From NCBI RefSeq assembly GCF_040054535.1, contig NC_090794.1, positions 489,501 through 553,500 of the forward strand: a stretch of 64,000 nucleotides of DNA. The letters are read 5' to 3'. Shown piece after piece: positions 1-53,900 of this stretch. The notes under the pieces were generated by a model. It was not told where the DNA came from and searched no databases. It was given only the letters and a program-made list of their open reading frames with translations. Each line of letters begins with the position of its first letter. Positions within the stretch are counted from its first letter, which is position 1. The translations under genes and the position numbers were made by a program. This DNA is from Antennarius striatus. Lineage: Eukaryota > Chordata > Actinopteri > Lophiiformes > Antennariidae.

Positions 1-416
1 GTTTCACTGCGTGAACCTGGACTGTTTCACCGTGTGAACCTGGACTGTTTCACTGTGTGAACCTGGACTGTTTCACTGTGTGAACCTGGACTGTTTCACT
101 GCGTGAACCTGGACTGTTTCACTGCGTTAACCTGGACTGTTTCACTGCGTGAACCTGGACTGCTTCACTGCGTTAACCTGGACTGTTTCACCGTGTGAAC
201 CTGGACTGTTTCACCGCGTGAACCTGGACTGTTTCACTGTGTGAACCTGGACTGTTTCACTGCGTGAACCTGGACTGTTTCACTGCGTGAACCTGGACTG
301 TTTCACTGCGTGAACCTGGACTGCTTCACTGCGTGAACCTGGACTGTTTCACTGCGTGAACCTGGACTGCTTCACTGCGTGAACCTGGACTGTTTCACTG
401 CGTGAATCTGGACTGA
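1..416. repeat. 23-bp minisatellite, array A (about 18 copies)
   Basis: Tandem units of 23 bp whose core is gtgaacctggactgtttcac followed by a variable tg[c/t]. Some units have gttaac in place of gtgaac, or gcttc in place of gtttc. The array reaches the left edge, so its full length is unknown. It lies in the arid1b intron and begins about 11 bp from the splice donor of the exon at 428. The same unit in the same orientation recurs at 30717-30870 and 51269-52272. Confidence 0.97.
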
Positions 417-427
417 GGGTTCCTCAC

Positions 428-928
428 CTGGGGATGGAGGCTGGATCCTGGCCTGGAGCGACGGGGGCTTCTTGGCGTCGGGCCCCGGGGCCTCTGGCGG
501 AGGCTCCTCCCCCCGCTCCACCTGACACTCGTAGGCGAACAGGTACTGGATGTACTGCTTCTTCAGGGAGGAGGCGGAGGTGCTGGACGTCCCCACGTTC
601 AGCTGGGAGGACAACTCCCTCCACTTCTTGTTCTTGTTCACCTGAGGGGGCGGAGTTTTACTCGTGATCTCTGAACAGTTAGCATTAGCGTTAGCTGGGC
701 GTCAGCCCCCAGTCTCACCATGGCCAGGCCCCCTATGTCCCTGACGGCCAGGTAGAGGCGGCACAGGTCCAGCGGCCTCCTGCCCACGGCGGGGAGGGCG
801 GGGACGGGCGTGCCCCGCCCTTCCATGAAGCTCAGGTAACGTTCCACCCACGCCGCCCGCTCGGGCTCCGCCCCCATGTCGTACAGCCGGGTGATGCTCT
901 CGCCTGTCAGGGTGGGCAGGCTGGCCTT
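428..928 (-). other. arid1b: ARID domain exons of arid1b
   Basis: Two exons (928-719 and 641-428) encode the helix-turn-helix ARID fold, which binds DNA without strong sequence preference in this family. The exon border falls between GGLAM and [10 protein letters not shown], the same place as in the mammalian gene as I know it. The intron between them is only 77 bp. The donor after 428 is followed within about 15 bp by the 23-bp minisatellite at 1-416. Confidence 0.9.
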
Positions 929-49730: not shown

Positions 49731-50410
49731 CAGCTAGTCCTCAACTTATGAACACAACTGGTTCCTAGAGATTGTTCATAAGTTGATGTGCTTGTAAGTC
49801 GTTATTTGTTAAATTTCAATCTATAATCTCCATCTAAGGTCATTTAAATATCATTACTACTTTAAATATTAAAGTTCTTTTCCCTCAGACTGACCAGAAA
49901 CAATTACAGGACATTAAAACAACACAGAATAAATAAAATACAGGTTCAGGTCATTTAGTGTTCAGTCGTTCTGATTATACGCCAGTTTAAAAATCTACTT
50001 TCTGTCCACCACAGATACTGGACTCTAAAAGTAACTAGAAAACCGTTTAAAGCTCATAATATCATGTTACTTTACAATAAATCAGAACAAAAACATGTAA
50101 TCATATTAAAATATGTGTGTATAGTTCCAATATCTACCGTTAAACGTTACTCATGATTCACGTGATTTAATCCAGATAAGTTTACGGTAAATATTTAAGA
50201 TCATCAACAACAGAGTCAGCTGTTGATGTTGATGATCCACTGTAGCATGTAGCATATAACTTAGCTTCATAGTGAAGGAAGAGGAAGAGGGGGAGGACTT
50301 ATTGTCGGAGAGGGGTACACATTTGTTTGCATCTCTGAAAGTTCATAAGTCAAACACGCATAAGTTGGACGTTTGTAAGTCAGATGTTTGTAAGTTGAGG
50401 ACTACCTGTG
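49731..50410. mobile_element. TIR-bounded non-autonomous DNA element (about 680 bp)
   Basis: The left end reads cagctagtcctcaacttatg and the right end, on the other strand, reads caggtagtcctcaacttaca. Each is followed by further gttcataagtt-type inverted words. No transposase is present. A ta dinucleotide flanks the left end, but the right flank is tg, so the superfamily (Tc1/mariner-like or other) is not settled. Confidence 0.6.
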
Positions 50411-50912
50411 TTTCACTGAAGTTTAAAGACAAACTGGACCAAACGACAACAGGAATGAAGCGCTGAAGGTGTAGTTTTATAAAGAACATTTTGCTTCAAA
50501 GATTTTGAATATGTAAAAGACCGTCTGATTGTCCCATGATGCATTGCGTCGCTCCCCCTCTCTGTTGAACGTCTCAGACGTCTTCACGTCGTCCTTTATA
50601 TTAATAAGTCTCTAACATTACAACTATTGATGGAGACCAAACGTCTGTTTGAGGCTCGACCGCCGCTGGTCGTCTGTCGGATGAAGCGTTGGTTGAAGGT
50701 TGAAACGCATCCATAATGAGACAAGAGATGCCCGGTTCTGACTGGAGGACGGACACGCCTCCTTCATGTGAGGGACGCCTTCCAGCAGAGACGGGCCACA
50801 CCCCCTCTCGCCCCACCGCCATGACATCATCAATCAACATGAAGCCTGTCACCGGGTCCAAAGTCCAACAGGAGCATTCCAGTTGGTTCTGTCCGGACGT
50901 CGCTGCTCTCCT

Positions 50913-53900
50913 TCAGGTCTGGTGTTCCACTGCATCTGGGCTCCTTTTTACCCAGAATGCACCTCTGTATCTCCTCCACGTCCCGAGAGCTTGTTGTCCA
51001 CTGAGAACAGAAACGATGATAAATATGATGATGACTTAATATATTAATGGTGTGTGTGTGTGTGTGTGTGTGTGTGTGTATGTGTGTGTGTGTGTGTGTA
51101 TGTGTGTGTGTATGTGTGTGTGTGTGTGTCCTCACTCTGTCTGGATGGAACAGAAGCTGGAACACTCGGCGTCCTGCTGGCGGCTGCAGACGCAGCGGCG
51201 GACGTCCCTCCTGAACCGGATCGAACCAAAACCATAAGGAACCACATGACTGCAAGACAGAACGACCAAGTGTTTCACTGCGTGAACCTGGACTGTTTCA
51301 CCGTGTGAACCTGGACTGTTTCACTGTGTGAACTTGGACTGTTTCAGGTGTGAACCTGGACTGTTTCACTGTGTGAACCTGGACTGTTTCTCCATGTGAA
51401 CCTGGACTGTTTCACCGTGTGAACCTGGACTGTTTCACTGCGTGAACCTGGACTGTTTCTCCGTGTGAACCTGGACTGTTTCACTGCGTGAACCTGGACT
51501 GTTTCACTGTGTGAACCTGGACTGTTTCACTGTGTGAACCTGGACTGTTTCACCGCGTGAACCTGGACTGTTTCACTGTGTGAACCTGGACTGTTTCAGG
51601 TGTGAACCTGGACTGTTTCACCGTGTGAACCTGGACTGTTTCACTGTGTGAACCTGGACTGTTTCACTGTGTGAACCTGGACTGTTTCACCGCGTGAACC
51701 TGGACTGTTTCACCGCGTGAACCTGGACTGTTTCACTACGTGAACCTGGACTGTTTCACTGTGTGAACCTGGACTGTTTCACTGCGTGAACCTGGACTGT
51801 TTCACCGTGTGAACCTGGACTGTTTCAGGTGTGAACCTGGACTGTTTCACTGCGTGAACCTGGACTGTTTCACTGCGTGAACCTGGACTGTTTCACCGTG
51901 TGAACCTGGACTGTTTCACTACGTGAACCTGGACTCTTTCACTGTGTGAACCTGGACTGTTTCACTGCGTGAACCTGGACTGTTTCACTGCGTGAACCTG
52001 GACTGTTTCACCGTGTGAACCTGGACTGTTTCACTACGTGAACCTGGACTCTTTCACTGTGTGAACCTGGACTGTTTCACTACGTGAACCTGGACTGTTT
52101 CACTGCGTGAACCTGGACTGTTTCACTGCGTGAACCTGGACTGTTTCACCGTGTGAACCTGGACTGTTTCACTGCGTGAACCTGGACTGTTTCACTGCGT
52201 GAACCTGGACTGTTTCACTGTGTGAACCTGGACTGTTTCACCGTGTGAACCTGGACTGTTTCACTGCGTGTTTGTGGATGCTGGCGACCTGACAAACAGC
52301 CTTCAGGTGAATTCTGTTTGTTCATCAACTTTCCTGGAGCTTCCTGATAACCTGCTGAACGTCTATAAAACACCTGAAGGAGCCGCAGACGAGTTCCAGA
52401 CTCCAGAGGAAACACAGAGTGTTGAAGGTCTCCATGCTGCCTCCACCGTCCTCTGGAGTTACTACCCGTCAGTGTATTTAGTGTACTTTAAATAAAGTTC
52501 TCATGTTCTCAGACATCACGGTCGTCATGACGACGTCAGAACCTTCTTCACGTGGATCCCTTTCCTCCCTGGACGTAAACAGCCTCTGTTTTCGTGGAGT
52601 CTCAGGTTCGGGACCGTCGGGTTCATTGAACGCTGATCCGACAGCCAAAGACCTCCAGCTCCCGGGCGCCGGTCCCGAACGCCGGGTCGTCCTCTAGATT
52701 TACGAGGGATGCTCATCCAACGTCGGGTCGGAACCGAGCCGGGCTTGAACACAACATCCACATCTGTCAGGATGAATTTACAGCGACCCGTGCGCCTGAG
52801 CCCAGATGGAGCCGATCCACCGGCAGCAGATGTTTGGGTCCCTGAAGGTCACGTCGGCTCGTGACGGCTTCCAAAGAGAGAAGAAGACAACAACAGGAAG
52901 TGCTCGTGGAGGCTTCTTCAGCAAGTTAGCATGCTAGCCAACAGCAGCCTCAGGCGAACGTGTTTGATGTTAGCCGAGCATTCTGGGTCTGGGGGTTTTA
53001 TGGCGCCCCTCAAACGGACCTGGTCCTCGGGTTGGGGAGCCGTTCTTCCGATCCGGAGGGTTGACGAGTCTTTAAGTCGTAACTAAAAGAAGCTTTTATT
53101 ACCCGTTCAGGTGAATTTTCCTGGCGGGGAATCGTTTTTACGATTGTTCCGACGACACGGGTGTTTTCATCCGAGCCCGTGGGCCAGGTAACCTACACAA
53201 ACCAGACTGTCTGAGCAGGATGGGGTACCTTCAGGGACTCTGGTGGCCCACGGGTTTCGTAGTGCCGCCTTCAGGGGTAGTTAGCGATGGGGAGGTTTTA
53301 TGGCGCTGCTATGCTTAGAAACCACCAATCAGGGCAGCCGGAGCTGCTTTTGGCTAATCGCTGCAGCTATTTTGGTTCCTGCTCTTAACTTAATGAGTTT
53401 CAAACGTGACATCTCGCAGTAATCATGGGTTTAGCGTGACAAACACAATACACGCCACCGGATGTGAACCAGCACCCTGGTGAGCCTCAGCGTGTGAAGT
53501 CGTCGGGACTGACTGGAAGGAGTTAAGTGTTGGGGGGACGCGGTTCAGACTCTGGTCACCTTTAGGGGCTCAAACAGGAAATGCAGCAGAAATTACCCTT
53601 CGTTAGCAAAGGTGCTTCCTGGTTAGCGCCACCACATCTCACAGCTAACTGCTCTCTGAGCCCAAATGAACTTAATTGCTACCAATTGTGAAGCCACGAA
53701 ACCCCAACCGTTGTTTTACTCGGGGGTCGAGTCCCTTCAGGTTCCCGTCGGAGAGTCCTCGTCCAATCAGGGCCAGGAAGGTTCCCGGAATACGGACGGT
53801 TGTGTTTTAAATACTCTGATTACTGCGGTTCAGCCCTATTTTTAGACTGGCTTTGGTTTGGAGCCCACCCCCCCCAGCCCACGGCGGCGGTGGGTCCCGT

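Follow-up and report, generated by a model that had tools for sequence, protein, structure and literature searches.

Why does one short tandem repeat occur at three distant places in a gene-dense part of a fish genome, and why do two of its arrays lie against exons? The question is raised by a stretch of 64,000 nucleotides from Antennarius striatus (contig NC_090794.1, forward-strand positions 489,501 to 553,500), which was analysed as a whole and is called the window here. According to the reading preferred in this paper, with a probability of roughly 57%, the repeat is an ordinary dispersed minisatellite family, which spread as bare array DNA and afterwards grew and shrank locally.

As determined by Tandem Repeats Finder (TRF), the unit of 23 bp is GTTTCACTGCGTGAACCTGGACT, with small variants, and its arrays A, B and C are displayed in Table 1 together with the exons and other repeats discussed below. 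Repeated head to tail in 6.5 to 43.6 copies, the unit belongs to the minisatellites, whose units measure about 6-100 bp; array A is truncated by the window edge, and its 18 copies represent the part inside the window. The earlier note had described three arrays of one unit in a single orientation, and TRF recovered them within a few bases of the same borders. By chance, an identical orientation in all three arrays would be expected in 1 of 4 cases. Of the 15-bp core CCTGGACTGTTTCAC there are 56 copies, every one on the + strand and within the arrays (14 in A, 6 in B, 36 in C), compared to approximately 0.0001 expected; the - strand contains none. No further copies of the 23-bp unit were found outside the arrays when both strands of the window were searched with up to 5 mismatches allowed. 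The window has no match in Rfam at gathering scores, and the unit was not matched in viral contigs, nor in bacterial or archaeal contigs, as is expected of a vertebrate repeat. A text search of the literature did not find the sequence strings of the unit in published papers.

Table 1. Positions in the window of the 23-bp arrays, the neighbouring exons and other repeats
Feature	Positions	Strand	Remarks
Array A	1..415	+	18.0 copies, 94% matches (TRF); truncated at window edge; in the intron past the second ARID-domain exon
Spacer, donor G (427) to array A	416..426	-	11 nt, counting the T of GT (426)
Second ARID-domain exon, arid1b-type gene	428..641	-	PF01388
First ARID-domain exon	719..928	-	PF01388; best solved match is human ARID1B
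6-bp array, unrelated, tiam D8	19697..19747		3 nt to donor; uniform-placement chance 0.23
12-bp array, unrelated, tiam D6	20052..20118		17 nt to donor, 23 nt to acceptor; chance 0.88
14-bp array, unrelated, tiam D1	21206..21241		6 nt to donor; chance 0.39
AAAC-type array, unrelated, tiam N3	26357..26432		8 nt to acceptor; chance 0.10
Palindrome, left edge of array B	30689..30721		14-bp stem, 5-nt loop
Array B	30718..30867	+	6.5 copies, 99% matches (TRF)
(GT)n array, endothelin intron 3	51050..51129		5 nt to exon 3 donor; chance 0.22
Endothelin-family exon 3	51136..51249	-	begins HVVPYG, as in endothelin precursors
Endothelin intron 2	51250..53910	-	2661 nt, contains array C; donor at 53910
Spacer, array C to acceptor AG	51252..51270	-	19 nt; 20 nt to acceptor G (51250), A of AG counted
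Array C	51271..52270	+	43.6 copies, 92% matches (TRF); 3' end of endothelin intron 2
Mature endothelin peptide, exon 2	53925..53987	-	21 residues; PF00322, E 9.9e-18; endothelin-1 match

All genes identified near the arrays are encoded on the - strand, and their exon junctions were placed by homology and splice consensus. The two exons beside array A (928-719 and 641-428) jointly encode one ARID domain, with PF01388 in each. The window also contains frames of claudin type and E2F type as well as a RhoGEF match. The RhoGEF gene has a match to Tiam_CC_Ex and one to PH_Tiam1 slightly below the curated cut-off, and is therefore called tiam-type. Synteny would suggest endothelin-4 for the endothelin gene, an identity that is not claimed here; no papers on edn4 as an endothelin of teleosts were found in a literature search. 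Measured from these exons, the distance is 11 nt between array A and the donor of the ARID exon, and 20 nt between array C and the acceptor of endothelin exon 3, so that the two were rightly described as standing beside these splice sites. For array B, the nearest coding exon identified is the one with the tiam-type start codon near 28118, from which the array is separated by about 2.6 kb on the upstream side, and no splice site was identified close to it.

When the window was compared with itself, no flanks common to the three array loci were detected. Among the best 80 matches of the unmasked comparison, those between array regions end at the arrays or a few bases beyond them; with tandem repeats masked, the self-matches (E up to 1e-5) consist of just three pieces, all belonging to one transposon pair. 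Additionally, the phase of the unit at which arrays start and stop differs between arrays. A transposon with internal repeats would be recognised by shared flanks, terminal repeats or target-site duplications. No such sign was found for the 23-bp arrays in what was covered, namely the flanks inside the window (the left border of A lying outside it), inverted repeats around array B and target-site duplications as judged by eye. A scan around array B found no inverted repeat spanning it, and the sole inverted repeat of 14 nt or more detected there is situated entirely to its right. Separate loci that carry one unit without common flanks are the pattern of a dispersed family, and three such loci exist in the window.

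A comparison of 64 full-length units (18 from A, 6 from B and 40 from C, with incomplete units at the array borders and three units of C that measure 22 nt left aside) also indicates little separation among the arrays. The units carry 63 differences from the consensus, 52 of them at positions 8-11. C/T changes at two sites preceding G, positions 8 and 10, account for 47 of these 52, and G to A at position 9 for the other 5. Variants found in more than one array are limited to the C/T changes of positions 8 and 10, all others being confined to a single one. Units differ on average by 1.40 within arrays versus 1.35 between them, and no grouping by array can be seen, the observed contrast being matched in 638 of 1000 label shuffles over all positions and in 208 of 1000 when positions 8-11 are excluded. 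This pattern fits a recent spread from a single pool and equally a recurrent decay of CpG sites, and does not tell the two apart. In array C, where blocks of units were compared at unit-wise lags, the best lag was 5 units, reached in 0.088 of shuffles, with no clear block structure. The earlier proposal of a dispersed family, based on three arrays in one window, is thus supported within that window: the unit is the same, no shared flanks were detected and the units are not sorted by array.

The surroundings of the arrays are rich in other repeats. The window is gene-dense, 30% of it is tandem repeat, and most of its delimited introns measure 60-130 nt. Between the tiam-type and zinc-finger genes, an array of a 21-bp unit extends over 8.2 kb (32561-40784, 404.5 copies). 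A 27-bp repeat at 41900-42022 lies in a zinc-finger reading frame and encodes copies of EVLHLKEEP. Two copies of an element, at 2267-3743 and 23037-24220, are 91.5-97.0% alike over three pieces; both have terminal inverted repeats, as judged by eye, and inside them a 40-bp unit is repeated in tandem, 7.9 times in the first copy and 3.9 times in the second. Two open frames exist on the + strand at 56905-57795, which contain words resembling reverse transcriptase and are perhaps a LINE remnant.

Against this background, the closeness of A and C to splice sites seems ordinary, because unrelated repeats nearby sit equally close. By homology and splice consensus, 18 complete introns were delimited, a set that covers part of the window and was not chosen blindly, as some arrays adjoining exons had been noticed beforehand; the rest of arid1b, parts of tiam, and the E2F, THAP and zinc-finger genes, with uncertain borders, were left out. 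The window contains 74 merged tandem arrays, of which 6 fall within the delimited introns, occupying 6 of the 18 and leaving 12 without any. Each of these 6 arrays comes to within 3-20 nt of a splice site; 5 of them are unrelated to the 23-bp unit. If arrays were placed uniformly, with the chance calculated for each intron separately as that of lying at least so near either end, array C would be found within its 20 nt of the acceptor with a chance of 0.025, the sole unusual one among the six values; array A stands outside this comparison, its intron running beyond the window. A transposon copy ending at 24220 also comes within 11 nt of the tiam donor at 24232. Arrays of a splice-site-targeted family should be nearer to splice sites than other repeats of the same genes; the five unrelated arrays lie at 3-17 nt, compared to 20 nt for C and 11 nt for A. 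Repeats of this compact stretch therefore seem to lie close to splice sites in general, and such a position does not look like a mark of the 23-bp family. Landing in intron ends, or growth from them, as suggested in the earlier note, was not supported as a property of the family by this comparison, in which five unrelated arrays and a transposon copy are equally close and B is near no identified splice site.

The earlier note had also expected rows of small hairpins beside the splice sites. Partial self-complementarity of the unit is indeed present, TTCAC and GTGAA forming 5 bp across a 3-nt gap. A single unit, with this 5-bp stem (-2.5 kcal/mol, z -0.11 and -0.27), folds no better than shuffled sequences, and a mild tendency appears only for a segment of A. 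Among 150-nt segments of the transcribed strand, that of A has a z of -2.12 (2 of 200 shuffles as good), that of B -0.74 (43 of 200) and that of C -1.29 (23 of 200), and the + strand of B has -1.38 (22 of 200). Concealment of a splice site by local folding is not clear for either site, with plain shuffles of the array part as controls: the donor at A is unpaired at 0.23 versus 0.31 with shuffled arrays (14 of 100 equal or lower), and the acceptor at C at 0.39 versus 0.34 (65 of 100). Across the window, hairpins whose arms measure at least 13 bp number 14, and 8 of them overlap tandem arrays.

A more direct relation to splicing can be read from the transcribed strand of endothelin intron 2. Its last 21 nt contain no adenosine besides that of the AG, and the nearest upstream adenosines, at -22, -24, -25 and -26, are all inside array C. 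Since no adenosine exists between C and the acceptor AG, an ordinary branch point has to lie in the array. In the last 75 nt of the intron there are two matches to YTNAY, at -34 and -57, both again inside array C; the transcribed strand of the unit itself contains such a match (TTCAC). Another AG ends at -29, and a branch point at -34 would require skipping it. Judged from sequence, array C must supply the predicted branch point of this intron, unless a non-adenosine or oddly placed one is used by the cell. A more far-reaching reading is conceivable, if improbable: a minisatellite that needs no transposon and spreads as array DNA only would have a motif resembling a branch point in almost all of its units, would for that reason be able to settle at 3' splice sites with splicing intact, and would have taken over the branch point of the endothelin intron. 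As a separate observation, the units of the tiam-intron arrays at 20052-20118 and 21206-21241 contain TGCTAAC-like words on the transcribed strand, which also resemble branch points. A published case, going by its title, reportedly concerns an intron-end minisatellite that provides donor splice sites. As far as that title indicates, it shares with array C the position at an intron end and the splice signal; donor sites are involved there, compared to a putative branch point here.

How might the three arrays have arisen? Under the preferred reading, array stretches would have arrived at new sites as bare repeat DNA, through copying or capture in the course of break repair, template switching or the reintegration of excised circles. 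Afterwards they would lengthen or shorten locally through unequal exchange and slippage; for array C such growth is inferred, the block-duplication test having given no clear signal. Many kinds of array may expand in this way until they meet splice signals guarded by selection. The position of A and C against exons would then follow from short introns, DNA rich in tandem repeats and protected splice signals, and not from targeting. Array C, judged from sequence, reaches so far that the repeat has to provide an ordinary branch-point adenosine for its intron.

Other origins can be weighed against this one. The unit may have been born within a transposable element and transposed to the three sites, with the carrier since decayed or cut away. 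Such an origin is possible, if doubtful: the element at 2267-3743 and 23037-24220 bears an internal tandem repeat of just this kind, with its 40-bp unit, many transposon-born minisatellites are listed in the portion of a review available here (PMC9659126), and a remnant may be decayed past detection or lie to the left of A, outside the window. However, no residue of a shared carrier was detected at the five borders that the window contains, and the arrays end at differing phases of the unit. Considerably less probable is a family that is directed to the ends of introns, or originated at them out of splice-signal sequence, and affects splicing via hairpins. Such a family would account for two of the three arrays standing near splice sites, at 11 and 20 nt, for the low uniform-placement chance of C, for the YTNAY match in the transcribed unit and for the A segment that outfolds most shuffles. 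It is opposed by the unrelated arrays and the transposon copy, which come as near to such sites in the same genes, by the lack of an identified exon near B, by a lone hairpin on par with shuffles and by splice sites that are not clearly hidden; moreover, a birthplace could be located at one locus at most.

The last two origins have hardly any probability. One segmental duplication as the source of all three arrays would agree with the single unit, the single orientation and a span within 52 kb. The earlier note had named a recent large duplication as an alternative beforehand, and the masked self-comparison, confined to the pieces of one transposon pair, contradicts it and excludes a single large duplication. 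Independent origin from chance 23-bp seeds would draw on the ability of slippage to give birth to short units; an identical 23-bp unit at three places, with its core repeated so far beyond expectation, makes this origin just as remote. An ordinary dispersed family spread as bare array DNA remains the preferred reading, with a lost carrier transposon as its chief rival.

Parallels to such a family exist in other animals. In the available part of one study, TCAST repeats of Tribolium castaneum are described at many gene-associated euchromatic sites, with an enrichment in introns across the pooled families, generally without sequence clusters, and their spread is attributed to recombination, extrachromosomal circles or transposition (PMC5844308). 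Like the 23-bp family, they are dispersed and not clustered by sequence; unlike it, their euchromatic copies are mostly single repeats, whereas the 23-bp family forms multi-copy arrays and is known here from one window (PMC5844308, as far as its accessible text extends). By analogy, TCAST may be regarded as a close parallel. Tetris of Drosophila virilis, as described in the accessible text, is a transposon with internal tandem repeats (PMC4079207). Transposons of this type and the 23-bp family both place tandem units at many loci; the units of the former, in the portions of the sources available, lie inside a recognisable element, whereas none was found around the 23-bp arrays, and it is the 40-bp family of the window that fits the type (PMC4079207, PMC9659126). 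In fishes, minisatellites exist in introns 1 and 3 of the GH gene of the sea bream Sparus aurata, and a 320-bp stretch common to MSTN-2 intron allele 4R and an osteocalcin intron is attributed to duplication and translocation in the part of the paper available (PMC3045353). These are minisatellites within fish introns, as is the case here; the sequences differ, and splice sites are not mentioned in that part (PMC3045353). The killifish Nothobranchius furzeri, with tandem repeats making up 21% of the genome according to the accessible text, is an example of a repeat-rich fish (PMC2688266).

These findings imply some caution, as a repeat that lies close to a splice site says little where most introns measure 60-130 nt and tandem repeats make up 30% of the DNA. 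The array may have arrived at endothelin intron 2 or may have been born there, both of which are compatible with the sequence. In either case, the locus illustrates the extent to which tandem repeats may push into compact introns. Should the branch point of endothelin intron 2 sit in a variable array, the length of the array and the sequence of its units could change the splicing of a signalling-peptide gene.
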